DNA of 29,461 nt from a virus, in the IMG/VR virus record IMGVR_UViG_3300034760_000020, positions 1 to 29,461 of that record. One strand, 5' to 3'. Both the position numbers and the translations under genes were made by a program. This document shows, one piece after another, positions 7,718-27,043 of this stretch (position 1 is its first letter; each line of letters starts with the position of its first letter). Under the pieces are notes generated by a model, which did not search any database, had not been told where the DNA came from, and saw only the letters and a program-made list of their open reading frames with translations.

Positions 7718-7734
7718 CAGATCGGGGGCGTGTG

Positions 7735-8217: not shown

Positions 8218-8540
8218 TCCTGCCGCACGCGCTGATCGTGCATCCGTCGGAGCTGACCACCGACGGCGACGGCAACCCGGTGCGGGTGCCGGCCCGGGTA
8301 GGGGTGCCGGCCGCCGGTTACGTCCAGCCGGTCACCTCCACCGAGGACACCGCCGCCGGGCAGGCGTCGGAGTCCCGGCACGTCGCGTACCTCGACCCCG
8401 ACACCCCGCGCCTCGACGCGTTCTCCCGCGTGCTGGTCGACGGCCTCGCCTACGAAACCGTGGGCGAGGCGCTGTGGTTCGCCAACCCGGAGGCCACCGT
8501 CACGTACTGGCGGGTGACGCTGCGGAAGGTGGGCGGCTGA
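8214..8540 (+). CDS. Head closure / stopper protein
   Basis: This 108-residue beta-rich protein starts at GTG 8214 within a GTGA overlap with the adaptor stop. It is preceded by GGGGAGGAGG. Features include PARVGVPAAGYVQPVTSTED, DAFSRVLVDGLAYETVGEAL and a final YWRVTLRKV strand. The small beta-barrel character and position match head-closure proteins (SPP1 gp16 / HK97 gp7-like), which plug the connector after packaging. An upstream in-frame ATG at 8187 is less likely because it would overlap the adaptor by 31 bp and has no ribosome site. Confidence 0.78.
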   Translation: MILPHALIVHPSELTTDGDGNPVRVPARVGVPAAGYVQPVTSTEDTAAGQASESRHVAYLDPDTPRLDAFSRVLVDGLAYETVGEALWFANPEATVTYWRVTLRKVGG

Positions 8541-8848
8541 TGGCATCCGTACCGCGCGATCTGGGCCGCCGGGTGGCGCGGCTGCCCGAGGTTCGCGCCC
8601 ACGTCCGTGCCGTGGCCGAGCGGGTGTTGACCGCCGCGAAGGCCCGCGCCGCCGCGCACAGCGACTCGGGCACCTTCGCTGACTCCCTGTCCGTGGTGCG
8701 CGGGCGCGTTGACGCCCAGGTCGAAAGCGACGACCCGCACGCGGTGTCCAAGGAGTTCGGCCACACCGAGGTTCGCACCGGCCGCCAGGTGCCCGGCATT
8801 CACGCCCTGGGCGGGGCCGCCGCCGACATCGCCGCCGAACGGGGGTGA
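8540..8848 (+). CDS. Tail completion protein, HK97 gp10-like
   Basis: This 102-residue protein starts at ATG 8540 in a TGATG overlap with the stopper gene. A basic N-terminal helical half (RAVAERVLTAAKARAAAHSD) is followed by strands and the closing motif HAVSKEFGHTEVRTGRQVPG. The EFGxxxxxTG-type ending with a bound His is characteristic of the HK97 gp10-like / DUF5403-type proteins that join the tail tube to the head. The gene order (adaptor, stopper, gp10-like, terminator) supports this. Confidence 0.8.
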   Translation: MASVPRDLGRRVARLPEVRAHVRAVAERVLTAAKARAAAHSDSGTFADSLSVVRGRVDAQVESDDPHAVSKEFGHTEVRTGRQVPGIHALGGAAADIAAERG

Positions 8849-8851
8849 GCC

Positions 8852-9256
8852 ATGTTGCCTGACGCCGAAGCGCTCGCCGTCGCCTGGCTACGCGGCGCAC
8901 CGGACCTGACCGGCATCGGGTTCGGCACCCAACGCCCGCCCGACCTGGCCGCCCGGCTGCCGTTCGTGGTGGTCGAGCGGATCGGCGGGACCGCCGAGGC
9001 CCCATCGTGGCGGGCCGGCGCCCTGGTCGACCGGGCCGGCATCAACGTGCAGGCGTGGGCCGGACCGCACCGCATCGACGCCCGACGACTCATCCACACC
9101 GTTGTCCACAGCCTGTTGTCCATACGCGGCGTAGCGCGACCGGGCGGGGTGATCGTGCGCGTGGCGATGCTCGCCGGCCCCACCGCGCTGCCCGACCCCT
9201 CCGCCCCGGACACCGTTCACCGGTTCACGACGTCGGTGCAGGTGACGGCGCATTGA
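8852..9256 (+). CDS. Tail terminator protein
   Basis: This 134-residue protein begins at ATG 8852, three bases after the preceding stop, with GGGGGTGAG as ribosome site. Tail terminators cap the tail tube once it reaches tape-measure length. The pattern LPFVVVERIGGTAE - INVQAWAG - ARRLIHTVVHSLLSI - FTTSVQVTAH is typical of the DUF3168/gpU-like alpha-beta fold. Its last 32 bp overlap the antisense membrane ORF. Confidence 0.82.
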   Translation: MLPDAEALAVAWLRGAPDLTGIGFGTQRPPDLAARLPFVVVERIGGTAEAPSWRAGALVDRAGINVQAWAGPHRIDARRLIHTVVHSLLSIRGVARPGGVIVRVAMLAGPTALPDPSAPDTVHRFTTSVQVTAH

Positions 9257-9419
9257 CGATCACTACCGGCGTCGGAACGGACGGCGTTTGCGGTCGACAG
9301 GCCGTCACCAGCATGGCGACTGCTTGAACAAGCGCCGCGAGCGCCGTTACGGCCGCGATTACACCCACTGATCGGTTGATCTGTGCGCGCTGGGGCCTGG
9401 GGGATGTCCGTCTCGGCAT
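9225..9419 (-). CDS. Small antisense membrane protein inside the tail module
   Basis: Reading leftward, 64 residues start at ATG 9419-9417. They comprise a basic Pro/Arg/Gln head (MPRRTSPRPQRAQINRS), one hydrophobic segment (VGVIAAVTALAALVQAVAML, about residues 20-40), a Cys, and a Pro/Val/Thr tail. The frame is open to an ATG at 9521, but the extra part has no fold-like pattern. The ribosome site is weak (GAGG about 14 bases away). It occupies an unusual 287-bp gap between tail terminator and major tail protein and runs against the operon, which fits a lysogenically expressed moron. It could also be a fortuitous ORF. Confidence 0.5.
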   Translation of the reverse strand: MPRRTSPRPQRAQINRSVGVIAAVTALAALVQAVAMLVTACRPQTPSVPTPVVIVNAPSPAPTS

Positions 9420-9543
9420 GGCGTTGGTCCATTCCTCAAGGGGTCCATATTCCGCTGCATGTGCCGCTCCCCTGGGGCTGTGAGACCTGCTGACAAAGAC
9501 GAGATTACGGGGCGGCGACAACCCTCATGTGAAGGAGTAAGAC

Positions 9544-10101
9544 ATGGCCTTGGACGACACCACGCTCGTGATCCCGGGCGTCGGCTACATCCACACCGCA
9601 CCGACCGGCACCACCCGCCCGGCCAACGCCGCCGCGCCGCCCGCGCCGTGGGTCGACAACGGTCACACCGCCGAAGACGGCTTGACGATCAACTTCGAGA
9701 TCAGCACGACGAAGCGACGCACCTGGCGGTCCCGCTCCGGTGTCCGGGTGTCCGTGGACGAGGTCAACTTCACGCTGTCGTGGACGGCGTTGCAGGTCGA
9801 CAACGACAGCCTGACGAACTACTTCGGCGGTGGCGATATCAGCCTGCCGGACACGTTCGGGGTGGTGAAGAACCCCGCCCCGGTCGAGCGGGCGCTGTTC
9901 ATTCGCCTGGTGGACGGTGACGACGAGGTCGACCTGTACGTGGCCAAGGCCGCGCTCGGCCCCGGCGGTGAGTCGACCGCCAGCCCGGAGGACTTCACCG
10001 GCTTCCCGATCTCGGCCGAGGTGCTCGACCACGCCGCCGCCGCGCACCTGGCGCAGTGGCTCGCCCCGCACCTGGGCGCCGCCTCCACCGCAACCCCCTA
10101 A
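9544..10101 (+). CDS. Major tail protein (tail tube)
   Basis: This 185-residue tube subunit is preceded by GAAGGAG. It opens with TLVIPGVGYIHTAPTGT, the usual start of actinophage tail tube proteins, in which the N-terminus reads like a value assigned to a tail contact. The middle has the GLTINFEISTTKRRTWRSRSG and VNFTLSWTALQVDN strands. The end, DFTGFPISAEVL, fits the beta-sandwich tube fold shared by phage lambda gpV and Hcp-like proteins. Position directly before the chaperone pair and tape measure is diagnostic. Confidence 0.92.
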   Translation: MALDDTTLVIPGVGYIHTAPTGTTRPANAAAPPAPWVDNGHTAEDGLTINFEISTTKRRTWRSRSGVRVSVDEVNFTLSWTALQVDNDSLTNYFGGGDISLPDTFGVVKNPAPVERALFIRLVDGDDEVDLYVAKAALGPGGESTASPEDFTGFPISAEVLDHAAAAHLAQWLAPHLGAASTATP

Positions 10102-10114
10102 CCGTCCCGTGTCT

Positions 10115-10154
10115 GCCCCGGGGCGGGTGCCGCAGACCCGCCCGCCCCGGGGCG
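10115..10154 (+). terminator. GC-rich hairpin after major tail protein
   Basis: CCCCGGGGCGGGT is matched by ACCCGCC(cg)CCCCGGGG on the other side of a short loop, giving a very GC-rich stem with a small bulge. A partial stop here would explain high tail-tube expression relative to the chaperones and tape measure. There is no T-tract. Confidence 0.6.
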
Positions 10155-10203
10155 CTCCACCACGCCCACCGGTCTGCCCCCTGCTTGTTGGAGGTCTGCC
10201 CTC

Positions 10204-10626
10204 ATGTCCGATGCTCTCGACGCCGCCGCTACCGAAGCCACCCGCGCCCCGGGTGAGCCGGTCCTGACCCACAACGCGCACGGCTACGTCTGGCGCTTCG
10301 GCCAGATCGACGTACGCCCGGCCCGGCTACGCCGTTACGCCGAGCTGGCCGAGTCCCTTGCCGGGCGTCGCCCTGATCAGATCAGCGGGCCGGAGGCTAT
10401 CGAGTTGTCCGCGACCGCTGAGGACATGCTGCGTTCCGCGCTGCCGGCCGCTGACCGGGCGCGCTTCGATGACGCCCCGTTCGGTGGTGCGGAAATCGGC
10501 GCGCTGATCTCCGACTACTTCGCCGCGCTCGGGATCGGCCCGGGGGAATCTGCGGCCTCGCCCGCCTCCTCGTCACCCACGGCGAAGCGGTCGAGGCCGA
10601 CCTCGCGCAGACGGGCACGCCGCTAA
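10204..10626 (+). CDS. Tail assembly chaperone, short form (gpG-like)
   Basis: This 140-residue protein begins at ATG 10204 behind TTGGAGG. It contains YVWRFGQIDVRPARLRRYAE and AIELSATAEDMLRSALPAADRARFDD, then an EIGALISDYFAALGI helix. The end (after about residue 113) turns into an unstructured Ser/Arg/Pro stretch typical of out-of-frame extension. In siphophages this protein is made in excess and coats the tape measure during tail assembly. The following frame (10545-10946) lacks its own good start and is joined by frameshifting. Confidence 0.88.
   Translation: MSDALDAAATEATRAPGEPVLTHNAHGYVWRFGQIDVRPARLRRYAELAESLAGRRPDQISGPEAIELSATAEDMLRSALPAADRARFDDAPFGGAEIGALISDYFAALGIGPGESAASPASSSPTAKRSRPTSRRRARR
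10542..10548 (+). other. Candidate -1 ribosomal slippery site
   Basis: Zero-frame codons ccG GGG GAA at 10540-10548 give the run GGGGGAA. A one-base backward slip lets the P-site tRNA re-pair on GGG and continues as GGA ATC TGC in the downstream frame. It sits just upstream of where the short form loses sensible sequence. The site is not a perfect X XXY YYZ heptamer, because the A-site tRNA would re-pair only partly, but it is the best candidate in the overlap. Confidence 0.65.
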
Positions 10627-10946
10627 CCGACCTGTGGACCGGGCGGCTGAGCCTGCGCCGGCTGCTGGTCCTGGTCCGGGAACTGCCCGCAACGTCCCGC
10701 CTGGCTGTGGCGGTGCGCGGCGGCCCGGCCCATGACGGCTGGGGAGTTGAGGCGTACCTGCTGGCCGCGTTGCTGGACGCGGTGCAGGCCAACACGCACG
10801 CGCTGATTCAGGTCAACAGCCGCAAGAAGGTCCGGCCCCCGGCCCGGGTGCCGCTACCCGGCAAGCCGGATCAGCGGCGGCGCACCGTGCGCGTCGCCGA
10901 GCTGCCCGGCGCCCGACCCACCGCACACCCGCCCGCGTCTGCCTGA
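10545..10946 (+). CDS. Tail assembly chaperone, frameshifted extension (gpT-like)
   Basis: This frame is one base behind the upstream chaperone and is open from at least 10545 to TGA 10944-10946. It reads ICGLARLLVTHGEAVEADLA, then TDLWTGRLSLRRLLVLVREL, GWGVEAYLLAALLDAVQA and a basic C-terminus. The downstream part is typical of gpGT extensions in actinophages and has no ribosome site of its own. The mature product would be residues 1 to about 114 of the short form followed by these roughly 133 residues. It links chaperone and tape measure. Confidence 0.85.
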   Translation, partial: GICGLARLLVTHGEAVEADLAQTGTPLTDLWTGRLSLRRLLVLVRELPATSRLAVAVRGGPAHDGWGVEAYLLAALLDAVQANTHALIQVNSRKKVRPPARVPLPGKPDQRRRTVRVAELPGARPTAHPPASA

Positions 10947-10969
10947 CGCACCTATCCCGGGGAGGTGGC

Positions 10970-13540
10970 GTGGTGGCCGGTCCCGGTGGAGTGCAGGCCG
11001 GGCGCCTGGCGGTTCGGGTGTTGCCGGACACCACGGCGTTCGCCCGGTCCCTGCTGCGCTATCTCGACCGCATCGAGGCCCGCACCGTGCTGCGGCTGGG
11101 CACCGACCTTGACGGCGCCGCCCTGGTCGAGCAGGCCCGGCAGGTCGCCGCCGCCGCGCAACGCGCCGCCGCCGTGCGGCTGCCCGTCGGCATCGACGCC
11201 GACGGGGTGGTGCGTCAGGCCCGGCAGGTCGCCACGGTCGCCGAACGCGCCGCCCCGGTCCGGCTGCGCGTGGACCTGGACGTCGACAAGCTCGCCGCCG
11301 GGGCGGCCCGCCTTGCGTCGATGGCCGCGACCGGTGCGCGCCTCGGGCTGGTCGCGGCATCGCTGGCCGGCGCGGTGGTGCAGGCCGCGAACCTCGCCGC
11401 CGCGCTGGCGCCGGCCGCTGGTGCGCTGGCCGCGATCCCGGCCCTGATGGTCGGCGCGGTCGCCGCCGCCGGGGTGCTGCGGTTGGCGTTCGCCGGGGTG
11501 GGCGAGGCGATCCAGGGCAAGCCGGAAGCCCTCGCCCGGCTGGCCCCGGCCGCCCGCACGGTCGTCGACGAGCTGCGCGCCGCCGCCCCGGCCGCCGACG
11601 CGCTGCGCCGCACCGTGCAAGGCGCCGTGTTCGGCCCGCTGATCGGTGAAGCGTCCGCCCTGGCCGGGACGTGGCTGCCGCTGCTGACCGCCCGGCTGTC
11701 CGGCATCGGCGCCCAGTTCGGGGCGCTGTTCGCGCAAATGGCCGCCGGTGCCCGCACCCCGCAGTTCATCGCCGGTATCGACGCCGCGTTGCGTTCCACC
11801 GGCGCCGGGATCGGCGCGCTGCGCTCGGCTGCCGTTCCGGCGATGCAGGCCCTCGGCGCGGTGATCGGCGCGTTCGCCCCCATGCTGGCCGGCGCCGGCA
11901 CCGGGTTGGCCGGGCTGGGGCGGGAGTTCTCCGCGTTCATCCTCGCCGCCCAACAGTCCGGCCAACTGGCCGAGTTCGTCACCGCTGTGGCCGGCACGCT
12001 GCGCAGCATCGGCGGGATTCTGGTGCAGCTCGGCGGGATCATCGCCGCCGTCATGTCCGCCGCGAACACCGCCGGTGGCGGGCTACTCGGCAACCTGGAA
12101 CAGATCCTCACCGCCGTTAACGCGTTCCTCAGCGCGGGTGAGGGGCGCACCGCCCTGCAAGCCCTGTTCGCGTCGGTGTCGCAGGTGATCGGGGCGCTGC
12201 TGCCGATCCTGGCCGATCTCGTTGGCGCGCTCGGCCCCGGCATCGCCGCGCTACTCGGCCCGTCCGGGCTCGCCGGCGCACTCAAGGCGCTGGCCCCGGC
12301 CGCGAAGCCGGTCGGCGCCGCGCTGTCGGCGCTGGCCGCTGCCGCCGCGCCGCTGCTGCCGCTGCTCGGGTCGCTGCTGGCCAACGCGCTGACCGTGGCC
12401 GCCGGGATGGTGCAAGTCCTCGCCGCCGAGTTCGGTCCGATCATCGCCGTGGTGGCCCAGGTCGGCACCGCCCTGGCGCAGCAACTCCTACCGGTGCTGA
12501 CCACGCTGATCTCCAACGGGCTGCCGGCCGCCGTGGCGTTGGGCACCGCCCTGGCCAACGCCCTCGCACCGCTGGTCCCGGTCATCGTGGAGATGGCCTC
12601 GACGTTCCTGTCCGTGCTGCTGCCAGCGCTGACCGAAGTGCAGGCGACCCTCAACGGGGCGTTGTTGCCGGTCATCACGCAGGCCGCCGCGAGCATCGGC
12701 GGGGCGCTGCTCGACGCGCTGCGCCAGCTCGCCCCGCACATCCCGGCCCTGGCCCGCGCGTTGGCCGGGCTGGCGCTGGCCTGGGTGCAGATCGTGACAG
12801 CGATGCTGCCCCTGGTCCCGCTGCTGGTGCAGGTCGTGACCTGGCTGATCGGCAACAACACCCTCGGCCCCGCCTTGCAGGTCGTCACTGTGCTTGCCCG
12901 GGTCCTGGCCGCGACGCTGGGGGTGGTGGCCGAGGCGCTGCGCGTCGCGGTCGGGTGGCTGTCCACGACCGCCGGGTGGGCTACCCGCACCGGTGCGGCG
13001 ATCGGGTCCGGGTTCGGTGCCGCGCTGCGCGTCATCGCCACCCTGCCCGAGCAGATCCGGCGGGTGTTCACCGGCGCCAGTTCGTGGCTGGTCGGCGCCG
13101 GCCGCGCCATCGTGGACGGGTTGCTGTCCGGCATCCGGCAGATGGCCGCCCGTGCGATCCAGGCCGCCCGCGACGTCGCCTCATCGATGCTGAACGCCGC
13201 GAAAAACGTGCTCGGTATCCGCTCACCCTCGCGGGCATTCGAGCAGATCGGCGCCCAAACGGTGGCCGGGTTCGTCGCCGGGATCGACCAGGCGAGGCCC
13301 GCCGCGTCGCGGGCTATGGCCGCTGTGCTCACCCCGCCGGCCGCCGGCCCGTTCGGGATCGCCGCCGCCGGGCTCAGCGGTCCGACGGACCTGCGCGACC
13401 CGGTCGTCAACCTCACCGCGCTGGTCCGCGTCGGCGACGGGCCGGTCATCGACGCCGTGGAGTCCGCCGTGTCATCCGACCCCGAGCGGTTCGCCCAACA
13501 CATCCGCGCCGGTGAGCGGGGGCTGACCCGCCGTGGCTGA
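10970..13540 (+). CDS. Tape measure protein
   Basis: This 856-residue protein sets tail length and occupies the tube lumen. The start is GTG 10970 after GGAGGT. The first 120 residues carry repeated Ala-Arg-rich modules (VEQARQVAAAAQRAAAVRLP and VRQARQVATVAERAAPVRLR), a visible tandem repeat. Long Ala/Leu/Gly-rich hydrophobic helices follow throughout 130-680. The C-terminal part (about 720-760) holds AINAARDVASSMLNAAK-like helices and GIRSPSRAFEQIG, a signature of actinophage tape measures. By the usual ratio of about 0.15 nm per residue the tail would be near 130 nm, so a siphovirus with a rather short tail. Confidence 0.94.
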   Translation: MVAGPGGVQAGRLAVRVLPDTTAFARSLLRYLDRIEARTVLRLGTDLDGAALVEQARQVAAAAQRAAAVRLPVGIDADGVVRQARQVATVAERAAPVRLRVDLDVDKLAAGAARLASMAATGARLGLVAASLAGAVVQAANLAAALAPAAGALAAIPALMVGAVAAAGVLRLAFAGVGEAIQGKPEALARLAPAARTVVDELRAAAPAADALRRTVQGAVFGPLIGEASALAGTWLPLLTARLSGIGAQFGALFAQMAAGARTPQFIAGIDAALRSTGAGIGALRSAAVPAMQALGAVIGAFAPMLAGAGTGLAGLGREFSAFILAAQQSGQLAEFVTAVAGTLRSIGGILVQLGGIIAAVMSAANTAGGGLLGNLEQILTAVNAFLSAGEGRTALQALFASVSQVIGALLPILADLVGALGPGIAALLGPSGLAGALKALAPAAKPVGAALSALAAAAAPLLPLLGSLLANALTVAAGMVQVLAAEFGPIIAVVAQVGTALAQQLLPVLTTLISNGLPAAVALGTALANALAPLVPVIVEMASTFLSVLLPALTEVQATLNGALLPVITQAAASIGGALLDALRQLAPHIPALARALAGLALAWVQIVTAMLPLVPLLVQVVTWLIGNNTLGPALQVVTVLARVLAATLGVVAEALRVAVGWLSTTAGWATRTGAAIGSGFGAALRVIATLPEQIRRVFTGASSWLVGAGRAIVDGLLSGIRQMAARAIQAARDVASSMLNAAKNVLGIRSPSRAFEQIGAQTVAGFVAGIDQARPAASRAMAAVLTPPAAGPFGIAAAGLSGPTDLRDPVVNLTALVRVGDGPVIDAVESAVSSDPERFAQHIRAGERGLTRRG

Positions 13541-13558
13541 CGACAAGGGGGTACAGGG

Positions 13559-14440
13559 GTGACGTTGTATCTCGGCCGGCCCGGCCGGTGGTTAGTGCTG
13601 CCGGACCCGGCGCCCGGTGTCGGCGCGTCGCTGGTGCGCCCGTTCGGGGAACACACGACGCTGGACGGTGGGCGGGTCATCGACTTCGCTGGCGCCGGCC
13701 GCCGGGTGTTCACCCTGCGGTGGCAGCGGTTGACCGATGACGAGTACGCCGTGCTGGAACAGGTCCACGGCGGCGCCCACGGTCCTGGCCCGTTCGTGCT
13801 GCTGCCGACCGGGTTGCGGTGGAACTACTTGTCCGCGTGGCAGGCCGCCTCCGGTGGCATCGGCACCTACCCGGCCGGGTTCTACCTCAGCGACGCCACC
13901 GAATGGTGGGCGCTGGCCAGCACCCCGCACCCGGTGCTGCGCGGCCCGCGTGCGATCGCGTGGCAGCTCACCCCCGGCACCCTGGCCGGTCGGATGCGGC
14001 TGCATTCCCCATCGGGCGGGACCGGCTGGCCGGTGGTGCCCGGGTTGGCGTGGACGTTCACCATCGCCGCGCAAGCCGACCCGCAGGCCGGTATCCCGGT
14101 GCGCGTGACGGTGCTGCTGCGCTGGTTCGACACCGACGGCGCCGAGGTCACCACCACACAGGTTGAGGCCACCGTCACGCCCGGCGCCTGGTCGCCGCTG
14201 CTGGTGTCCGGGACGCCGCCGTCGGCTGCGGTGACCGTGCACCCGGAGGTGATCGTGGCCGACGCGTCAGTCACCGCCGAGACGGCGCTGTACCTGGACA
14301 CCCCGGCGTTGGAGATCGGGCCCGCGCGCGGGTGGCTGCCCGGCCGTGGCGTGCCGGTGGTGAGCATGGTCGAGCTGAGCGACACCTACGCCTGGCACGA
14401 CCTGCACGACTGCGAAGCGACGTTGCGGGAGGTGGCCTGA
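13559..14440 (+). CDS. Distal tail protein (Dit-like minor tail protein)
   Basis: This 293-residue protein starts at GTG 13559. It joins the tail tube to the tip. The N-terminal domain shows YLGRPGRWLVLPDPAPGVGA and RRVFTLRWQRLTDDEYAVLE, the latter a Dit-like hydrophobic pattern in which a Trp-Arg strand precedes a Leu-rich helix. A beta-sandwich or carbohydrate-binding-like middle follows (FTIAAQADPQAGIPVRVTVL, TVTPGAWSPLLVSGTPPS), which may bind surface glycans. The last residues overlap the next gene as TGATG. Position after the tape measure is the main support. Confidence 0.8.
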   Translation: MTLYLGRPGRWLVLPDPAPGVGASLVRPFGEHTTLDGGRVIDFAGAGRRVFTLRWQRLTDDEYAVLEQVHGGAHGPGPFVLLPTGLRWNYLSAWQAASGGIGTYPAGFYLSDATEWWALASTPHPVLRGPRAIAWQLTPGTLAGRMRLHSPSGGTGWPVVPGLAWTFTIAAQADPQAGIPVRVTVLLRWFDTDGAEVTTTQVEATVTPGAWSPLLVSGTPPSAAVTVHPEVIVADASVTAETALYLDTPALEIGPARGWLPGRGVPVVSMVELSDTYAWHDLHDCEATLREVA

Positions 14441-16689
14441 TGCTGTGGGTGAACCCTGCCGTGGAGGTGGCGATCCTGTCCGCCGAGCGGCACGCGAGCG
14501 TGTGGCTGTGGGTCGACTGGGACGGCGACGAGCGAGGCCAATGGGGCTCCATCGAGGACATGTCGGCGTTGGTCACGTCGTACCGGCTGGAACGCTCCCT
14601 GGACGGGGAGCTACCCGAGCAAGTCCGCATCGTGGCCGGCGCCGGAGCCGCGCTCGCCCGCGTCACCCTCACCGGCACCGGTGGGCTGTCCGGCGCGGCG
14701 TACTTCTCCCCACTCAATCCCGCCTCGCCGCTGGGGCGGACCCGCGTCGGGCGCTCCGCGTACCTGGCGATGCTGTGGGACTCCTCCGACGGCCCGCGCC
14801 TCGTGCCACGCCTGGTCGGCTCCACCCGGGCCGTGAGCGTTAACGCCGCCAGCCGCCAAGCCACCCTGACCATGCTCGACAACCGCGAACGGTTGCGCGG
14901 GCTGGTCGCCCTGCCGCCGATCGAGGGCGCCCGGTACGGCGCCAACGCCACCTGGATCATCTCGTGGGCGCTGGCGGTGTGTGGGTGGACGGCAGCGCCG
15001 CGCCCGCGCAACATGCGCCGCCTCGGCCCGGTCGCCAACGCCCGATGGATCAGCGACGCCGCTGTCTGCCTACCCCTGCACGGTTCGCTCTGGCCGTGGT
15101 TTCGTGGCCTGTCGCACGGCGGTGGCCTGCCGCCTGACCTGCAAACGGTCAGCGCCAACGGCGGCGCACCCGTGCCGACCCGGCCCCGGTTCGTGCCCGG
15201 CCCGTTCCTGCTCGGCGCGTACGCCGGGGCGACGGCGGCGAACCGGTACACCGCCATCCGCGCGACCCTGCCCGCCTCCGACGGCGCCAAACCGGTATTC
15301 GAGACACCCGCCCGCACGGGGCGGCTGGAAATGTGGGTGCGCGGCGACGCCTACCCGTTCACCGGCAACCCGTCGGAGCGCGCTGTGGCGTTCAGCGCGC
15401 ACGGGTTCAACGGCCAACCCGTCTTCACTGTCGGGGTGTGGCGTGACCGGCGAGTGTTCGCCGAGCTGCTCGACGGCGCCACCGTCCGGTTCCGCGTGTC
15501 CAACTTGGAACTGCCCGAGGACGGCAAGTGGCATTTCGTCGGCATCGCGTTCCGGCTCTCCGGCAGTCAGCCGCAGGTTGTGCTCTGCGTCGATGACGAG
15601 AGCGAAACCATGCCCGTCACGCTGAGCGGGTCGCCAGCGGTGACCGACCTGTACACCCTGACCGCGTACCTGCCGCTGGCCGACCTGCAACTCACCGCAA
15701 CGCCGCTGGACACGGCATGGCTCAACGACGGCATTACCGAGCGCACCGAGTGCGACATCGACCCGTCCGGGTTGGAGCTCGACGCCGTCATCGAGCGTGA
15801 CCAGCGCGAGGCATGGGGGCTGCTGCGCGAGATCGCCGCCGCCGAACAAGCCGTAACCTTGTGCGACGAGTTCGGGAACTTCGCCTACCGCACCCGCGCC
15901 CGGCTGGCCGCATCCACCACCCCGGTCCTCACGCTGACGGCCGCCAACGCCATCACCGACATCACCGTCACCGAAAGCCTCGACACCGTCCGCACAGTGG
16001 TCGAAGTCCCGTACACCGCCCCGACCGTCGGCGCCGGGTACGCGTGGAGTCTCGACCAGCCCGTCCACGTCCCCCCGAACGGGCGGGTCACCATCCCGGT
16101 CGTCCTGGACGCCCCGGCCGTACAACTCAAGCTGAACCCGCTGCTCATCTCGGGCGGGGCGCCCAGCATCCCGGACTCCTACTTCCGGGCCTACAGCAAC
16201 CCCGACGGCACCGGCGCCGCCATCACGTCCGGGTTCAGCGCGTCCGGGGGTTCGTTCACCACCACCGGGCAGGGCACCGTGCAGTTCAGCAACAGCACCG
16301 GGCAAGGCGTCTACGTCACCGAGGCGCGGCTCGCCGGGCGGGTCATCCGCACCCGCCCCACCGGCGCCGCCGTGGCCGAGCACCCCCGGCTGGCCACCAG
16401 CGGCGAGCAACCGCAACCGCTACGGCTGCCGGACTCGCAATGGGTCCAGCGTCACGACGTGGCCGCCGCCCTGGCCGCCGCGATCCTGCCCGACGTGGCC
16501 GACCCCCGCCCCGTCGTGACCGACCTGGCCATCCGGGGCGACCCTCGCATCCAGCTCGGGGACCGGGTGCGCCTGGTCGACCGCGACGGCATTGGCGTTG
16601 ACGGCGACTGGTGGATTACCGGCATCACCGAAACCCACGAACCGACCAGCGGCTACGCCATGCGGATCACCGCCCGTCAAGCCGGCTAA
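14440..16689 (+). CDS. Tail tip / baseplate hub protein with LamG-like domain
   Basis: The protein is 749 residues from ATG 14440, in a TGATG overlap with the Dit-like gene; an in-frame ATG at 14332 would overlap it by 108 bp and is rejected. The N-terminal hub part (VWLWVDWDGDERGQW, TSYRLERSLDGELPEQV) and the C-terminal part (LGDRVRLVDRDGIGVDGDWW, near 715-735) are typical of siphophage Tal/hub proteins. Between them, about residues 285-400, is a laminin-G/concanavalin-like lectin domain ending in the characteristic LPEDGKWHFVGIAFRLSGSQ motif followed by VVLCVDDES. This middle domain probably contacts host-surface sugars and would be a host-range determinant. Confidence 0.87.
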   Translation: MLWVNPAVEVAILSAERHASVWLWVDWDGDERGQWGSIEDMSALVTSYRLERSLDGELPEQVRIVAGAGAALARVTLTGTGGLSGAAYFSPLNPASPLGRTRVGRSAYLAMLWDSSDGPRLVPRLVGSTRAVSVNAASRQATLTMLDNRERLRGLVALPPIEGARYGANATWIISWALAVCGWTAAPRPRNMRRLGPVANARWISDAAVCLPLHGSLWPWFRGLSHGGGLPPDLQTVSANGGAPVPTRPRFVPGPFLLGAYAGATAANRYTAIRATLPASDGAKPVFETPARTGRLEMWVRGDAYPFTGNPSERAVAFSAHGFNGQPVFTVGVWRDRRVFAELLDGATVRFRVSNLELPEDGKWHFVGIAFRLSGSQPQVVLCVDDESETMPVTLSGSPAVTDLYTLTAYLPLADLQLTATPLDTAWLNDGITERTECDIDPSGLELDAVIERDQREAWGLLREIAAAEQAVTLCDEFGNFAYRTRARLAASTTPVLTLTAANAITDITVTESLDTVRTVVEVPYTAPTVGAGYAWSLDQPVHVPPNGRVTIPVVLDAPAVQLKLNPLLISGGAPSIPDSYFRAYSNPDGTGAAITSGFSASGGSFTTTGQGTVQFSNSTGQGVYVTEARLAGRVIRTRPTGAAVAEHPRLATSGEQPQPLRLPDSQWVQRHDVAAALAAAILPDVADPRPVVTDLAIRGDPRIQLGDRVRLVDRDGIGVDGDWWITGITETHEPTSGYAMRITARQAG

Positions 16690-16728
16690 CAACCCGCGCG
16701 GCGCCGGCCGCCACCACACAACCGACCA

Positions 16729-16757
16729 GGCCGCCGAGGCACCCGCCCGGCGGTCCT
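16729..16757 (+). terminator. Hairpin between tail and lysis genes
   Basis: GGCCGCCG (16729-16736) pairs with CGGCGGTC (16748-16755), one pair being G-T, and is followed by ctttc. It lies in the 98-bp gap after the hub gene and before the endolysin ribosome site. This is a modest stem, probably a weak or partial terminator. Confidence 0.5.
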
Positions 16758-16787
16758 TTCGTGCTGCCCAAGGAGGGCGACTCAGCC

Positions 16788-17678
16788 ATGACCGACATCC
16801 GCCCCGACCCGTCCAACGCCCCGCCCCACGCGTGGCTCGACGGCGACCCCTACGGCACCGCCGGCACCGCCACCGGCGACACCGCGCCGCGCCTGGCCGT
16901 GATGGCGCTGGCCGCGTGTACCTGTGTGCCCGCGCCCGGACTGGACATCGAACGCAAGCGCCTCGCCGCGATCGGCGGGCGGTGGCTCGGTACCTGCGGT
17001 GACCGGAACCACACCTATGGGTTCCACGTCCCGGCGTGCCGCCTGCCCAGCTCCGACTACTCGATGCGCGGCGCGGCGAACCGTCCGGCTGATAACCGGT
17101 ACGGCTGCGCCATCGACATCGGGATGAACTGGCCCGCCGCCCGGACCTGGCTGCGCTGGCTCATCAAGGCCATCGCCGACGACCGGATCACCGGCATCGC
17201 CGAAGTCATCGGCTCCTACGACGGCCGCAACGTGCGGTACTGGTCCGACGCCACCGGCTGGCACACCGACGGCGTCAAGTACACCGGTTCGGGTCACGAC
17301 ACGTGGACCCACGTCGCGGTCTACCGCTCCACCGCCACCCGCGATCACAAGTTGCTCGCCGGCTGGACCGCCACCACCGGCCCCGGCACGACCACCCCGC
17401 CGAAGCCCAAGCCGCCCACCCCGAAGCCGCCGGCCGTGCCACCGTTCCCCGGTCGCGTCCTGGCCTACACCCCGGGCCGCCCGCTGATGAGCGGGCAGGA
17501 CGTACGCCAGTGGCAACAGCGCATGAAGGCCCGGGGCTGGAACATCACCGTCGATGGCGTGTACGGGCCGAAGTCCCGCGACATCGCCACCGCTTTCCAG
17601 CGCGAAAAGCGCCTCACCGTGGACGGCAAGGTCGGCCCGCAGACCTGGCGCGCGGCATGGACCGCACCCGTGACCTAA
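16788..17678 (+). CDS. Endolysin: M15-like peptidase domain plus peptidoglycan-binding domain
   Basis: This 296-residue lysin starts at ATG 16788 after AAGGAGGG. Residues about 70-180 carry a candidate zinc peptidase site: His80 in YGFHVPAC, Asp110 in GCAIDIGM and His175 in DTWTHVAVY. This is the H-D-H order of M15-type D,D/L,D-peptidases, but the spacing is unusual, so the catalytic class is inferred. A Pro/Lys/Thr linker (198-220) joins it to a C-terminal PG_binding_1 domain (about 227-292) with SGQDVRQWQQRMKARGWNI, VDGVYGPKSRDIATAFQ and VDGKVGPQTWRA. It lacks a signal peptide, so release depends on the holin downstream. Confidence 0.88.
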   Translation: MTDIRPDPSNAPPHAWLDGDPYGTAGTATGDTAPRLAVMALAACTCVPAPGLDIERKRLAAIGGRWLGTCGDRNHTYGFHVPACRLPSSDYSMRGAANRPADNRYGCAIDIGMNWPAARTWLRWLIKAIADDRITGIAEVIGSYDGRNVRYWSDATGWHTDGVKYTGSGHDTWTHVAVYRSTATRDHKLLAGWTATTGPGTTTPPKPKPPTPKPPAVPPFPGRVLAYTPGRPLMSGQDVRQWQQRMKARGWNITVDGVYGPKSRDIATAFQREKRLTVDGKVGPQTWRAAWTAPVT

Positions 17679-17695
17679 CCAGAAGGGAGGTACCC

Positions 17696-18055
17696 GTGGC
17701 CGCGCTGGACATCTACACCGCCATCGCCGGGACCGGCGCGGCCACCACCCTCATCGGCGCCGTCATCGGCCACATCGCAGGCCGCAGCCGCACCCGCGCC
17801 GAAATCGCCCGGCTCGAAGCCGAACGCGATGTCCTGCGGGCGCAAGCCAGCCAGGCCATCGCAGAGGCGGCCGGCGCCCTGGCCGCCGAGCTGCGCGCCG
17901 AGCTGGACCGCCTGGCCGACGAGCTGGCCGCCGCCCGCGCCGCAGCCCAACGCGCCGAGTCCGAAACCGTGCGGCTACGCGTCGAGCTGGCCGCCGCCCG
18001 CGCCGAGATCACCCGACTGCGCACCACCCTCGACGCCATCACCCGCGACGGGTAA
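17696..18055 (+). CDS. Membrane-anchored coiled-coil protein of the lysis cassette
   Basis: This 119-residue protein starts at GTG 17696, seven bases after GGGAGG. An N-terminal membrane segment (about residues 6-25, AIAGTGAATTLIGAVIGHIA) is followed by an almost unbroken Glu/Arg/Ala/Leu coiled coil to the end (ARAEIARLEAERDVL, ELRAELDRLADELAAARAAA). Standing between endolysin and holin suggests a role in lysis, for example a holin partner or a spanin-like factor. No family match is clear, and actinomycetes lack a typical outer membrane for classical spanins. Confidence 0.8.
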   Translation: MAALDIYTAIAGTGAATTLIGAVIGHIAGRSRTRAEIARLEAERDVLRAQASQAIAEAAGALAAELRAELDRLADELAAARAAAQRAESETVRLRVELAAARAEITRLRTTLDAITRDG

Positions 18056-18131
18056 CCGGCGCGTCAACCCAACTGCCGGTACCGCTCGCCACCGTTCGAT
18101 CGAGCCAAGTTCCGCCACCTCGGAGGAAGCA

Positions 18132-18395
18132 ATGAAAAGCAACCCGACCGGCTACGGCGCCACTATCTCGGTCGCCGCTAAAGCCGTCCTTGTCGCCCTG
18201 GTCGCCGTCGGCGCCCTGCCCTGGGACGACGCTACCGTTGGCGCCGTCGCCCTGGCCGTGGCCGCCCTGGTCGACCTGACCATCTATCTCGGACTGGTCC
18301 GGCCATGCGTGACCCCGGTCGCCGCGCCGAAGGACAACAACGGCACGCCACTGGTGCCGGTCTACAACCCCGCCAATCCGAACACCCTCAACTAG
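18132..18395 (+). CDS. Holin (two membrane segments)
   Basis: This 87-residue protein starts at ATG 18132 behind GGAGGAAG. It has two hydrophobic helices (about residues 12-32, TISVAAKAVLVALVAVGALP, and 36-58, TVGAVALAVAALVDLTIYLG) joined by a short DD turn. A polar Pro/Asn-rich C-terminus follows. This is the topology of actinophage holins that release endolysin. It is the last gene of the late operon before a strong terminator. Confidence 0.87.
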   Translation: MKSNPTGYGATISVAAKAVLVALVAVGALPWDDATVGAVALAVAALVDLTIYLGLVRPCVTPVAAPKDNNGTPLVPVYNPANPNTLN

Positions 18396-20697: not shown

Positions 20698-20892
20698 TTA
20701 CGCGGGAAGGTCGAACGCTCCGTCCTTTAAACCGTAGACGAACGAGGACCAGTCTTCGGCGCTGAAGGTCAACACCGGCCCGTCCTTGTCCTTACTGTCC
20801 CGCACGTCGACCGTCGGGCCAGTGTCCTTAGCCTCCACACACTGACCGTTGTTGCCGGATCGGCTGGCCTTGACCCACTCATTCCGCTTCAT
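20698..20892 (-). CDS. DUF397 protein
   Basis: This is a 64-residue protein of the DUF397 family. It has the signature EWVKASRSGNNGQCVEAKD, VDVRDSKDKDGPVLTFSAEDW and FVYGLKDGAFDLP, in which W-K-S-S-x-S and V-R-D-S-K motifs recur. In streptomycetes such proteins are encoded beside XRE regulators (the whiJ/whiJ-like and abaA-type loci) and are thought to antagonise or modulate them. Its ATG lies within the last 14 bp of the XRE gene, so the two are translated together. Confidence 0.92.
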   Translation of the reverse strand: MKRNEWVKASRSGNNGQCVEAKDTGPTVDVRDSKDKDGPVLTFSAEDWSSFVYGLKDGAFDLPA

Positions 20893-21736
20893 TAGCGCGC
20901 TCCCTGATGAACTTTACGGATTCCGCTGGCGACATGGCCAGAGTTTTTAGGTGGTCGTACACCGAGTCTAGCCGTTCAATTTCCTTGGCGCTCTCAAGGA
21001 AGAGTTCGCCCGCTAGCGTCTCAATGTATCCGAGGGCCGGTTCGTCTTGTTCGAACGTAAGCACCGCGAAACCACCGCGTGTTGCGATATGTGCCCCTGC
21101 GGCGAACCGCAACACCTGGATTGTGACGTTAGGGAGCCGCGACGTGGCCGCGACGTGTTGAAGTTGCTGGCGCACTATGTCGGCGCTTCCGACTTCTACC
21201 GTCAAAGCGGCTTCGGAAAGAATTGTGTGCATCCGAAGGGGCTTTGGCGTGCGCTTCAATACCTCCTGGCGCTTGAGTCGAGCCGTGACAAGCTGTTCTA
21301 TTGCTTGAGGCTCCATCTCCCTTCCGACACTAATGACCTCCCGCGCATACGCTTCGGTTTGTAGCAGTCCCGGAAACAGTGTTGGCTCGAAGTTGCGGAG
21401 TTCAACCGCTTCCGCCTCGTAGGCGATGAAGGTTGCATACCTGCTGGACAAGGCGTCAAGGCGCTGCCACCAACCCGACTCCCGTAGATCTCGGGTCAGC
21501 GCCACGAGCGACTTGCCCGGTTCGCTGTCCAGCGGCAGCCCGTAGGCAACCAGGAGTTCCATAACGTCGCCAGGTCGGGGCTTTATCTCGCCTGACTCGA
21601 TGCGGCTCACTCGTGACGGTGAGCAACCAAGCAACTTGCCCACTTCATCAAGATTCTTCCCCTGGCTGTCGCGCAGCCGCCGCAGCTCTCGCCCAAGTCG
21701 GCGGGAGCGGGGTGTCGGTGGAGTGAAGCGAGCCAT
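20879..21736 (-). CDS. XRE-family regulator with DUF5753 domain
   Basis: The protein has 285 residues from ATG 21736-21734, which has TGAGGGAA upstream; ATG 21754 would add six residues. The N-terminal HTH (about 15-70) reads GRELRRLRDSQGKNLDEVGK then CSPSRVSRIESGEIKPRPGD. The rest is a DUF5753 ligand- or partner-sensing domain, with FEPTLFPGLLQTEAYAREVI near 114-133, VTARLKRQEVL, and VTIQVLRFAAGAHI with GGFAVLTFE. Together with the DUF397 gene it forms a regulator pair common in actinomycetes. Here it faces the methyltransferase operon and may control it or serve as a phage regulator. It is not obviously a classical immunity repressor. Confidence 0.92.
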   Translation of the reverse strand: MARFTPPTPRSRRLGRELRRLRDSQGKNLDEVGKLLGCSPSRVSRIESGEIKPRPGDVMELLVAYGLPLDSEPGKSLVALTRDLRESGWWQRLDALSSRYATFIAYEAEAVELRNFEPTLFPGLLQTEAYAREVISVGREMEPQAIEQLVTARLKRQEVLKRTPKPLRMHTILSEAALTVEVGSADIVRQQLQHVAATSRLPNVTIQVLRFAAGAHIATRGGFAVLTFEQDEPALGYIETLAGELFLESAKEIERLDSVYDHLKTLAMSPAESVKFIRERANEAE

Positions 21737-21852
21737 GCCCTGATCTTCCCTCATGTTGCGCCCGTCCTCATAGCGGAGCGTGACCGTGATGCTCAGCGCT
21801 TGCGGGTGGAGCGTATCCGGACCATCAAGGCCTGCGTGTCGGGGGTTGCCGA

Positions 21853-21866
21853 GCATCATTTGATGC
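21853..21866. promoter_or_regulatory. Palindrome in the divergent promoter region, possible operator
   Basis: GCATCA-TT-TGATGC is a perfect 6+2+6 palindrome midway between the XRE gene and the rightward operon starting at 21948. It is a candidate binding site for the adjacent XRE regulator. No sharp -35/-10 pair was identified on either strand here. Confidence 0.45.
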
Positions 21867-21947: not shown

Positions 21948-22124
21948 ATGTGGGCTACCGCCGTACTAGGCGCATTGATCTTGGGGTTTCTACCGGGAGC
22001 TCTGGCCTTCAAGCGGTCCGACAGGTGGGCGAGGTTCTGCGCCACCTGCGGTGTCACCAATACGTGCCCACTCGGACATACCGACAAGACCCCTGCCACC
22101 GTACGGAGGCGACACCATGACTAG
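21948..22124 (+). CDS. Small membrane protein with Cys/His tail
   Basis: The product is 58 residues from ATG 21948 with GGAG nine bases upstream. An N-terminal hydrophobic helix (WATAVLGALILGFLPGALAF) is followed by a basic turn and a possible metal-binding knuckle, FCATCGVTNTCPLGH (CxxC then CPxGH). It is the first gene of the rightward operon and overlaps the start of the next gene by 8 bp. A longer reading from 21873 lacks a ribosome site. Function unknown; small membrane proteins of this type often accompany XRE-DUF397 loci in actinomycetes, as far as I recall. Confidence 0.72.
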   Translation: MWATAVLGALILGFLPGALAFKRSDRWARFCATCGVTNTCPLGHTDKTPATVRRRHHD

Positions 22125-22698
22125 CTTGACGACACAGCTTCCCCGGCGGGTGCGTGGGGCGTCGCTGCCACCGGCAGCGAGACGCGCCATCGGTCGCGCC
22201 ACTGTCGTGTATCCGGACTCGCGTTGGTCTACGGACCTCGTGACGCTGGCGTGCTTGCTGGAAGCGCTGAGGGCCTGGAATCCCGACGAACTACCGGCGG
22301 CGGCCGTTTACACGCGTGAGCGTCCACTACGTCAAGTGATCCCACGGCGGCCCTCCGGGCCGGTCAACGGCCACGCCGGGAACGAGGCGTACGGACACCC
22401 GCCGCTGCCTGCCGCAGCTCCGATCCTGCCGCCCGTCACGCCGGCCGATGATCTGCCCCGGTTCGTGATCCATCTTCCTGTGGCGGTGCGCGACCTGGAC
22501 GCCGCGAAGCAGTACGCGCGGCAGCTCTGCGCATCGCTCGCCCACCTGCCCGAGATAGACGCGGAGCAAGTGACGGTGTCTTACGAGGACAGCCAGCACG
22601 AGCACCACCGCGTCTTCTGCGGCCTTCCCATGCAAGGCGGCGTTCCGTGTTTTTGCGAGCATGGGCACCCAGGGGCTTGCGGTGTTTCCGATGACTGA
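22117..22698 (+). CDS. Hypothetical protein with Cys-rich C-terminus
   Basis: The protein has 193 residues from ATG 22117 behind CGGAGG. The first half is helical with a WSTDLVTLACLLEALRAWNP segment, and the middle is Pro-rich. The second half contains FVIHLPVAVRDLDAAKQYAR and EIDAEQVTVSYEDSQHEHH, an alpha-beta pattern. The end is CGLPMQGGVPCFCEHGHPG ACG, with four Cys and several His that could bind a metal. It is the second gene of the operon. No known family was recognised. Confidence 0.72.
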   Translation: MTSLTTQLPRRVRGASLPPAARRAIGRATVVYPDSRWSTDLVTLACLLEALRAWNPDELPAAAVYTRERPLRQVIPRRPSGPVNGHAGNEAYGHPPLPAAAPILPPVTPADDLPRFVIHLPVAVRDLDAAKQYARQLCASLAHLPEIDAEQVTVSYEDSQHEHHRVFCGLPMQGGVPCFCEHGHPGACGVSDD

Positions 22699-22957
22699 GC
22701 CACTTCGGCCGACTCCGGGGGCCGTCTTGCGACTCTCCGAAGATCAGTACAAGTTCGGTAGCGGTCCGCTGCTTTGCAAGGTTGAAACGGTGATTGCGCT
22801 GGTTCAGTTCGACGGGTTTCCGTGGTGGCACCTGCGTGGAGAATGCGCGCATGGCACACGGGACCGCCACAGCTCTTGGTTTACGCGAGAGTTGTATGTC
22901 GTAAGCACGGCTGTACGGAACAAGCAGACCAGGGAGGGCACCAATGTTGCGCAATAG
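22691..22957 (+). CDS. Small hypothetical protein (WHLRGECAHGT motif)
   Basis: The product is 88 residues from ATG 22691, overlapping the previous gene by 8 bp. A compact beta-rich body contains VETVIALVQFDGFPWWHLRG and ECAHGTRDRHSSWFTRELYV. The Trp-His-Leu-Arg-Gly and Arg-Glu-Leu-Tyr-Val elements look conserved, and in my recollection similar small genes stand beside XRE-DUF397 and methyltransferase genes in other actinomycetes. Function is unknown. The stop overlaps the next start by 14 bp. Confidence 0.75.
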   Translation: MTEPLRPTPGAVLRLSEDQYKFGSGPLLCKVETVIALVQFDGFPWWHLRGECAHGTRDRHSSWFTRELYVVSTAVRNKQTREGTNVAQ

Positions 22958-23150: not shown

Positions 23151-23184
23151 CTAAGTGCACCGTTTAAGGGGAGGTATGCCGGTT

Positions 23185-23304
23185 ATGGCAAAGCATGACA
23201 ACACCACCGACAAAGGGCGATCAAACAAGGAAGACCCCCCGAAGATTAGCAAGCCGAAGGATGACGGCGGGAAGCACTCCGGAGGCAAGGGCGGCAAGAA
23301 GTGA
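23185..23304 (+). CDS. Lys-rich 39-aa peptide, candidate imiditide-type RiPP precursor
   Basis: The start is ATG 23185, ten bases after GGGGAGG (23168-23174). The ATG at 23176 is only one base from that site and so is unlikely. The 39-residue product has ten Lys, no hydrophobic core, and one Asp-Gly site in KPKDDGGKHSGG (Asp27-Gly28). A Gly/Lys tail follows. Asp-Gly is the sequence most prone to aspartimide formation. The stop overlaps the methyltransferase start (GTGA). In imiditides a PIMT homologue methylates one Asp of a linear, highly charged precursor, which then cyclises to aspartimide. Assignment as precursor is inferred from charge, the DG motif and this neighbour. It could also be a basic accessory protein. 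Confidence 0.75.
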   Translation: MAKHDNTTDKGRSNKEDPPKISKPKDDGGKHSGGKGGKK

Positions 23305-24437
23305 AGCCACCCCATCAAGAACTTGTTGACGCACTCGTCAAGGACGGCCACCTTGCAGGCGAATGGGTGCTCCCTTTCACGGCGACCCCGCGTAGCCCTT
23401 TCGTTCCGTTGGTCGCATGGGTTGACACTGGCAAGGGCATGAAGGAAATCAGGCTGGCTGACGATTTCGACGGCTGGTTGGCGGCAACGTGCGAGGATCT
23501 ACCCATCGTCACGCAATGGGATGATGGAGCTTCACCCCTAGGCCCCATCGATGACCGCACCCCGACTTGCTCAATATCGCAACCGTCGATCGTTGCTGAC
23601 ATGCTGCGGGAAACACTAATCGAAGACAACAACCGGATTCTGGAAATCGGGACCGGTACAGGGTGGAACACGGCGCTACTGGTGCAACGGCTTGGGGAAG
23701 ACAACGTTTACACGGTCGAGATTGATCCCAAGCTCGCGCAGCAAGCGCGAGACAACCTCGCCACAGAAGGCCGGCACCCCAATGTCATCACCGGCGATGG
23801 AGCGGAAGGCTACCCGCCCGGCGCTCCGTATGACCGGGTGCTGTCCACCGCCTCGGTGTTCACCGTGCCGTACCCGTGGGTGGAGCAGACCCGGCCCGGC
23901 GGCTATGTGGTCACACCGTGGCGTACAGCCCTGATCAACGGCCTACTGCTGCGCCTGATGGTCAACGACGACGGCACCAGCGCCGGCCGCTTCGTCGGTA
24001 CCGCGTCGTTCATGCCCTTGCGCTCGCAGCGCGCCCCAACCGAAGACGTGGACATCTCCGGTCATGGCGTGGACAGCGTGACGAGCGTGCACCCAAGCGG
24101 GCCGCTCAGTGTCGGTGACGCGCAGTACGCCATCGGCATGTTGGTTCCCGGTTGTTACCAGTGGTTACAGCATGAGCCGGACGGCTATGTCGTTCGGATG
24201 GAGGACGCGGGCACGCAGTCATGGGCAACCGTCACTGTTGCCGCTAGCGACTCGGAGGGGCGGCACGCTGTGAGGCAGGGCGGCCCCCGGCAGTTGTGGG
24301 ACGAAATCGTCTCGGCTTACGACTGGTGGCGTGACGCGGGCGAACCAGAGATGACCCGCTTCGGGGTGACCGTCACGCGGGAGGGTCAGACCGTGTGGCT
24401 AGACCATCCTGTGAACGTCGTCGCGCCTTCGTTGTAG
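23301..24437 (+). CDS. PIMT-like O-methyltransferase of the RiPP-associated type
   Basis: This 378-residue protein starts at GTG 23301, four bases into the end of the peptide gene. Residues about 90-225 are the protein-L-isoaspartate methyltransferase fold: TCSISQPSIVADML (89-102), SAM-binding LEIGTGTGWNTALLVQRLG (114-132), VYTVEIDPKLAQQARDNL (136-153), GDGAEGYPPGAPYDRVL (165-181) and RPGGYVVTPW. Repair-type PIMTs are about 210 residues. This one adds a long C-terminal part that ends WWRDAGEPEMTRFG (342-355) and VTVTREGQTVWLDHP (356-370), the motif I know from PIMTs linked to lasso peptides, lanthipeptides and imiditides. The protein is acidic, as expected for recognising a Lys-rich substrate. 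The product would be a methyl ester converted to aspartimide. Confidence 0.85.
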   Translation: MKPPHQELVDALVKDGHLAGEWVLPFTATPRSPFVPLVAWVDTGKGMKEIRLADDFDGWLAATCEDLPIVTQWDDGASPLGPIDDRTPTCSISQPSIVADMLRETLIEDNNRILEIGTGTGWNTALLVQRLGEDNVYTVEIDPKLAQQARDNLATEGRHPNVITGDGAEGYPPGAPYDRVLSTASVFTVPYPWVEQTRPGGYVVTPWRTALINGLLLRLMVNDDGTSAGRFVGTASFMPLRSQRAPTEDVDISGHGVDSVTSVHPSGPLSVGDAQYAIGMLVPGCYQWLQHEPDGYVVRMEDAGTQSWATVTVAASDSEGRHAVRQGGPRQLWDEIVSAYDWWRDAGEPEMTRFGVTVTREGQTVWLDHPVNVVAPSL

Positions 24438-26439: not shown

Positions 26440-27043
26440 GCCTCTTACGTCTGTTGACTTTGCCGCAGCCGGTCCCGCCGGTCACCAGGTAGGCGAGGCG
26501 GGCCGCGACGATGCCGGCGAGAACGGGCGCCACGTCGGCCGGCACGCCACCATGACCGACCAGCTCGTCCAGCGTGAACGGCCGCTGCCGGAACGTCCGC
26601 AGGGACAGGTACGGCCCGGCGGTGCCGACGGGCGGCAGGACCGCGTGCAGCCGGGTGCCGTCGGGCAACCGGGCATCGGCGTACGGGCAGCCGTCGTCCA
26701 ACCGCCGCCCGCAACTGGCCGCCAGCCGCTGCGCGAGGCGACGTACGTCGTCCACCCCACCGACCGACACGGCGACGCGATGCAGTCCAGCGCCCCGGTC
26801 CACCCAGACCTCGGTGCCGTTGACGAGCACGTCGGTGACCGCCGGGTCGGCCAGTAGCGGCGCCAGCGGGCCGGCCCCGACCAACTGGTTGCGCACCTGG
26901 GAGGCCAGATTGAGGACGGCCGTGTCGCCGAGCACGGCGGCCGCCGGCTCCCGCCGCACCGCGGCCACCACCGCGGCGGGGGTCGCCTCGGAACCCTCGG
27001 CGGCGAACCGCCGCCGCACCCGGTGGGCGAGCTGGTCACTCAT
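26396..27043 (-). pseudogene. tadA: tadA/cpaF pilus ATPase, truncated by prophage integration
   Basis: The remnant starts at ATG 27043-27041, overlapping the ssd stop as ATGA, and runs 215 residues. The first about 195 are the N-terminal domain of a TadA/CpaF secretion ATPase: PLAPLLADPAVTDVLVNGTE (with the VTDVLVNG motif), RRLDDGCPYADARLPDGTRL, LHAVLPPVGTAGPYLSLRTF and GIVAARLAYLVTGGTGCGK at the end. The last 20 residues are phage-derived and stop at TGA 26398-26396. The Walker A threonine and the whole C-terminal ATPase core are missing, so the product cannot hydrolyse ATP. The 3' part should be on the far side of the prophage, beyond the left edge. Confidence 0.9.
26440..26475. other. Right attachment site (attR) inside the tadA Walker A codons
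   Basis: On the minus strand, TadA-like coding is intact up to GGC GGG ACC GGC TGC GGC AAA (26479 down to 26459) and becomes unrelated from GTC AAC onward. TadA should continue as Lys-Thr-Thr-Leu-Leu. The join therefore lies within or just beside GCGGCAAA. The exact core and dinucleotide cannot be fixed without attL or attB. This is inferred from protein continuity. Confidence 0.8.

Follow-up and report, generated by a model that had tools for sequence, protein, structure and literature searches.

The window, the whole stretch of 29,461 nucleotides of virus DNA that was analysed, contains a two-gene cassette on the plus strand with the following features:

23170..23174, plus strand, GGAGG ribosome-binding site of the peptide gene, 10 nt ahead of ATG 23185 (from the sequence)
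23185..23304, plus strand, precursor peptide gene of a putative imiditide/pamtide, 39 aa (from the sequence, its homologues and a survey of upstream ORFs)
23301..24437, plus strand, PAMT, a RiPP-associated PIMT homologue of 378 aa with the SAM motif EIGTGTGW at residue 115 and WxxxGxP at 343 (from Pfam, NCBIfam, PHROGs, tree and AF2)

The first gene is a Lys-rich ORF of 39 codons at 23185-23304, running from ATG 23185 to the stop codon TGA at 23302-23304, and its product is MAKHDNTTDKGRSNKEDPPKISKPKDDGGKHSGGKGGKK. ATG 23185 was taken as the start because the rival ATG at 23176 is badly spaced from the GGAGG and relatives of the peptide also begin MAKH. The end of this gene overlaps the GTG start of the methyltransferase gene (23301) as GTGA. 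The coordinates and translation confirmed the initial annotation of a Lys-rich 39-mer coupled in this way to a PIMT homologue of 378 aa. The peptide has 10 Lys, 1 Arg and 6 Asp/Glu among its 39 aa, a G+P content of 26% and a net charge of +5, which agrees with the size and composition of type I pamtide precursors (~45 aa, rich in Gly, Pro, Asp and Lys). The Asp-Asp-Gly-Gly site given in the same annotation occurs once, as claimed, but it does not hold the sole Asp of the peptide, which has five (5, 9, 17, 26 and 27). Type II pamtides (cysimiditides) were ruled out as a class for this peptide, which has zero Cys where theirs is a CxxCxGxG zinc-ribbon precursor.

The enzyme matched PCMT of Pfam over residues 91-243 and methyltransferase family 13505 of PHROGs over its full length (345 bits). 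A C-terminal extension of more than 100 aa (residues 246-378) carries WxxxGxP as W343-R-D-A-G-E-P, and the RiPP-type C-terminal motif that had been claimed for the enzyme, WRDAGEPEMTRFGVTVTREGQTVWLDHP, was found from W343 onward. The AF2 single-chain model had a mean pLDDT of 93.4, and its best PDB match was the C-terminally extended T. maritima PIMT 1DL5; a C-terminally extended PIMT structure accords with the structural description in PMC10787088. PADLOC gave no noteworthy defence-system match, only mad2 on the generic methyltransferase part.

We placed the enzyme in a 68-protein tree, in which a 100/100 branch split it from E. coli Pcm and the viral repair PIMTs and it grouped with five Micromonosporaceae PAMTs at 99/95. 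The separation from repair-type enzymes had been set beforehand as a test of the annotation, and the enzyme came out on the RiPP-associated side. Viral contigs can also carry repair-type PIMTs (L220-L247), and in principle the gene could encode a repair PIMT of the phage, or a PAMT whose substrates are phage or host proteins; in either case the small ORF would be incidental. However, the viral repair PIMTs in the tree are ~205 aa long, have no C-terminal domain and lie on the opposite side of the 100/100 branch, while the small ORF has a homologue in the locus L161 and a peptide precedes the enzyme in 91 of 99 loci, so that we regard this explanation as extremely improbable. The catalytic methyltransferase fold is shared with repair PIMTs (E. 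coli Pcm, PDB 3LBF; T. maritima 1DL5), and 1DL5 is also C-terminally extended; unlike a repair PIMT, the window enzyme is separated from Pcm at 100/100 and is coupled to a dedicated peptide.

The highest NCBIfam match was TIGR04188, the ATP-grasp-system methyltransferase, over residues 8-365 with 305.7 bits, under the cut-off of 380. TIGR04364 (FxLD lanthipeptide) matched partially with 110.7 bits against a cut-off of 320. Assignment as a graspetide methyltransferase was rejected on the missed cut-off and the failure to find an ATP-grasp neighbour, and assignment as an FxLD lanthipeptide methyltransferase on the missed cut-off, the partial match and the absence of lanthionine enzymes. The TIGR04188 match, together with the many distant Micromonosporaceae relatives that sit behind an apparent ATP-grasp gene, would fit a PAMT that makes a secondary modification in another RiPP class (graspetide or class I lanthipeptide) and whose partner enzymes have been lost. 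We consider such a loss very improbable: both scores fall below their cut-offs, the scan of neighbouring ORFs with Pfam, NCBIfam and PHROGs showed no ATP-grasp, LanB/LanC or lasso enzyme, the graspetide PAMTs formed a separate clade (99/95) that excludes the window enzyme, and peptide and enzyme are coupled as in type I pamtides. Graspetide and lanthipeptide systems associated with PIMTs thus share with the window a homologous PAMT of equal overall length, and differ from it in their ATP-grasp or lanthionine enzymes.

The nearest relative, L161, has an enzyme 54% identical to that of the window and was found in 1 of the 68 genomes of its genus. This enzyme is directly preceded by MAKHDTTGDGHKKGIDPSRITKPKDDRGKHSGGDQGGKGGKK, a homologue of the window peptide with 62% identity over 32 aa (tblastn E 5e-6). 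The two precursors have in common MAKH...KPKDD-(G/R)GKHSGG...GGKGGKK, and their codons compare as 17 identical, 9 synonymous and 12 non-synonymous. Two more small ORFs of the window are conserved in the same order upstream of the L161 cassette:

21948..22124, plus strand, small ORF, 58 aa, conserved upstream of the L161 cassette (tblastn to L161:11810-11646, 38%)
22661..22957, plus strand, small ORF, 98 aa, conserved upstream of the L161 cassette (tblastn to L161:11455-11168, E 2e-12)

The other precursors of the clade open with MGKH or MAKH. Among 99 related loci, 91 have an upstream ORF of 28-75 aa, rich in G, P, K, D and S, immediately before the enzyme, and the 4-nt overlap seen in the window is the commonest arrangement of peptide and enzyme. 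The homologue before the L161 enzyme and the presence of such an ORF in 91 of the 99 relatives show that the small ORF is more than a chance reading frame. Retention of a peptide upstream of the enzyme in relatives, also fixed in advance as a test, was thereby observed. One related locus, L163, has an intact enzyme gene and, upstream of 9877, a precursor frame that keeps only the C-terminal part GGGGKRSGGSGGAGGGKKK, the N-terminal half with all Asp being gone. In the IMG/VR contig L181 a PAMT is present, and a recognisable precursor was not found.

Comparison of the precursors points to Asp26 or Asp27, just before GGKHSGG, as the likely candidate site of modification, with Asp9 less likely; an Asp is present at position 9 in 4 of 5 clade members. 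Asp17 is unable to close an imide because Pro comes next. The proposal that Asp27 is the site is upheld insofar as Asp27-Gly28 is the best candidate and chemically favourable, but Gly28 is not conserved: L161 has Asp-Arg at this place, and L162 has no Asp there. The pattern DD-x-GKHSGG is common to the window and L161 and absent from L162, L164 and L165. Of 19 representative precursors, 10 have an Asp shortly before G-x-K-H, where shuffles would give 1.2, for a pattern picked after inspection. One of these 10 is a Streptosporangium peptide with Asp-His at this place; Asp-His has been reported for NmaA as well.

Type I pamtides (PMC10787088), also named imiditides (PMC13001092), consist of two genes, with a WxxxGxP PAMT and no other RiPP enzyme. 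In SpaA and NmaA the PAMT methylates an Asp, and an aspartimide or isoAsp follows (PMC10787088, PMC13001092). In the window the precursor gene likewise adjoins the PAMT gene, with no further primary RiPP enzyme among the scanned neighbours, and neither an exporter nor a leader protease could be recognised next to the cassette. The imiditide-type reading of the initial annotation is supported by the two-gene layout, the WxxxGxP domain and the absence of other recognised RiPP enzymes, and we hold it to be quite probable that this locus represents a type I pamtide/imiditide cassette on a phage. Compared by description, it resembles NmaA/NmaM and SpaA/SpaM in its two-gene form, its short linear precursor with abundant Gly, Asp, Lys and Pro and its WxxxGxP PAMT. 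It differs from them in lying on a prophage, and its modification is a predicted one. Its precursor also has no proline-rich PDGGP core of the kind common in Streptomyces and instead has the MAKH start and DDGGKHSGG.

The carrier of the cassette was identified from the following features:

689..18395, plus strand, phage head, tail and lysis genes (terminase, portal, MuF-like protein, capsid, tape measure, endolysin 16611-17678; PHROG matches)
26455..26465, no strand, right prophage-host junction (attR region), in the tadA Walker A codons (tadA alignment)
26461..27043, minus strand, host tadA/cpaF-like ATPase gene, cut after the P-loop GGTGCGK (comparison with intact copies)

The PHROG matches were strong for terminase (1.8e-72), portal (7e-116), tape measure (2e-68) and endolysin (1.4e-26), while the MuF and capsid names come partly from reading the sequence and partly from phage similarity. 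The head genes showed nucleotide similarity to Streptomyces phage Attoomi. All 13 intact tadA copies compared aligned up to about window base 26460 and not past it, and base 26460 is, as judged from this alignment, the right prophage border. The tadA gene was present in 143 of 151 genomes of one genus, with up to 79% identity for full-length matches; we infer that the host is a soil bacterium, most likely Micromonospora. The prophage location given in the initial annotation is thus supported: the interruption of host tadA at 26460 places the cassette between this junction and the lysis module, in a window that covers the right part of the prophage, with the left border and the integrase outside it.

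The GC content falls from ~0.73 in the head and tail genes to ~0.61 in the cassette region, and a lower-GC stretch between lysis genes and border is typical of later-acquired cargo. The same drop, which extends over 18-26 kb, could also mark a separate non-phage island beside the prophage, and the L161 cassette lies 3 kb from a tyrosine integrase with no phage structural genes in the scanned ORFs. However, 26460 is the sole host junction seen, no integrase was among the ORFs scanned from the lysis genes up to that point, and Austintatiousvirus and the IMG/VR contig L173 hold a like cassette in the slot between lysis genes and integrase; we judge such an island improbable, and the cassette is treated below as prophage cargo.

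Two more cargo genes lie by the border, at 24938-25588 and 25604-26368. Neither had a family match; the first has a secretion-signal-like start, and no relative of it was found among viral contigs. The tadA/cpaF-like pilus ATPase is broken exactly at its Walker A codons, beside a cpaE-like gene (26455-28137), and integration of the prophage may switch off a Flp-pilus-type locus.

A nucleotide search of the cassette region against 50,697 phage records gave zero matches, so relatives were sought by protein. The cassette is not a one-off of this prophage, since cultured Austintatiousvirus phages and other phage contigs carry such cassettes. The Austintatiousvirus phages, cultured temperate phages of Streptomyces venezuelae, have a full-length PAMT and an upstream peptide, MSGKHGG...SSDGSGPAK. 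Their cassette adjoins holin and endolysin and, in most genomes read, also a divergent HTH regulator with DUF397. Among IMG/VR contigs, the PAMT cassette of L173 lies between lysis genes and a serine integrase, that of L178 is 0.7 kb from a holin-like gene, and that of L180 shares its contig with terminase, portal and capsid; the PAMT of L181 is near an endolysin.

Several further arrangements were observed. Saccharomonospora phage PIS 136 (L089) has a PAMT remnant at 2896-3617 that lacks its middle part and is split into two ORFs; an HTH/DUF397 pair lies next to it, and at 5196-5441 there is a separate small zinc-ribbon protein with an Asp between two Cys motifs. In six IMG/VR metagenome or genome contigs (L184, L186-L188, L190 and L191) a PAMT stands behind an ATP-grasp-like gene, and from this gene order these are possibly candidate phage-borne graspetide cassettes. 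Zinc-ribbon-like peptides resembling type II pamtides/cysimiditides lie upstream of PAMTs in two viral contigs (L189:11-160 and L212:7243-7686). The cargo of the post-lysis slot seems to differ among related phages (L086-L090, L291 and L292; Streptomyces phages Picard, Mojorita and Darolandstone), with the regulator alone in some and regulator, peptide and PAMT in others, at times with a tRNA gene ahead.

The Austintatiousvirus type of PAMT is also common in Streptomyces chromosomes (23 of 296 genomes). The idea that this type is phage-specific was rejected, since 19 of the 20 Streptomyces stretches fetched had no similarity to two reference phages. On a 40-protein tree, where the label 'chromosomal' was judged only by lack of similarity to two reference phages, four changes of the phage label are required, and well-supported branches force each of them. 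We read these changes as four captures by phages.

Peptide biosynthesis as prophage cargo is known from other RiPP classes; sublancin is carried by the SPbeta prophage. In actinobacterial prophages, an antiSMASH survey found clusters in 0.6%, including class I lanthipeptides, which occur in Streptomyces prophages (PMC10023795); the RiPP class differs from that of the window, and the main text of that paper, as far as searched, names lanthipeptides and no PIMT-type methyltransferase. In the literature searched, where absence is not proof of novelty, no paper joined pamtides to phages, and neither PMC10787088 nor PMC13001092 mentions 'phage' or 'virus'. The cassette type is therefore already known, and the new part is its carriage by phages and the recurrence of that carriage, a carrier previously unreported in the literature searched.

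A regulatory pair lies upstream of the cassette:

20698..20892, minus strand, DUF397 small protein, the regulator's partner (41-45% identity to DUF397 proteins of Austintatiousvirus, PIS 136 and L083)
20879..21859, minus strand, HTH regulator with DUF5753 sensor domain (WhiJ-like), divergent from the cassette (Pfam HTH_31 and DUF5753, 1.3e-52; like placement in relatives)

The true start of the regulator may lie downstream of 21859. A DUF5753 regulator was found 1-3 kb upstream, mostly divergent, in 26 of the 53 host loci with full flanks, and the 3-kb upstream bin held 27 DUF5753 hits against 1-3 in other bins. The same placement was seen in the window, in two Austintatiousvirus phages and in PIS 136. 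XRE-DUF397 pairs govern antibiotic production and development in Streptomyces (PMC6262351, PMC10364602); PMC10364602 mentions neither methyltransferases nor RiPPs, and the related BldB paper PMC10294661 does not mention methyltransferases. These observations allow a different role for the product of an imiditide cassette, in which the modified peptide would be no antimicrobial but would act on the DUF5753/DUF397 pair as ligand or partner. We regard this role as possible but doubtful: the regulator may do no more than switch the cassette, DUF5753 genes are likewise found in phages with no PAMT match and 2.8-3.6 kb upstream in 4 of 27 graspetide-type loci, and in half of the loci a DUF5753 regulator was not found at the sensitivity used.

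For the phage-borne imiditide cassette, the chemistry, site, regulation and biological role can be pictured as follows. In the lysogen, the acidic C-terminal domain of the PAMT would hold the basic peptide. Residues 246-378 of the enzyme contain 19 acidic and 7 basic residues (net -12), and the opposite charges of this domain and the peptide are consistent with charge recognition. A general charge match between PAMT and precursor was weakly supported: across loci the anticorrelation was weak (rho -0.26 to -0.30, not corrected for relatedness), and charge pairing does not hold in general, the Austintatiousvirus precursors being neutral or slightly acidic. The PAMT would methylate one Asp, most likely Asp27 or Asp26, and the methyl ester would close to an aspartimide that would partly hydrolyse to isoaspartate. 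The divergent DUF5753/DUF397 pair is the probable regulator of cassette expression. Since no exporter or protease was recognised nearby, the peptide would serve in lysogenic conversion, acting within the lysogen or once lysis has released it. An action on competitors, as the initial annotation also envisaged, would be pure inference.

The four inferred captures suggest a benefit to the carriers. Temperate actinophages might have captured imiditide cassettes repeatedly because the modified peptide benefits the phage and, with DUF5753/DUF397, forms a signal or switch by which lysogens sense or control each other or exclude other phages; we put this forward as a speculative and rather unlikely scenario. 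If true, a peptide signal or switch in lysogens would be the first biological function for imiditides, and a 2026 review named tying aspartimidylated RiPPs to biological function as the bigger challenge (PMC13001092). The cassette-bearing S. venezuelae phages Austintatious, PapayaSalad, Ididsumtinwong, Bioscum and Alderaan offer a genetically accessible setting in which to study what imiditides are for, and the link to DUF5753/DUF397 provides a second testable lead on their function.
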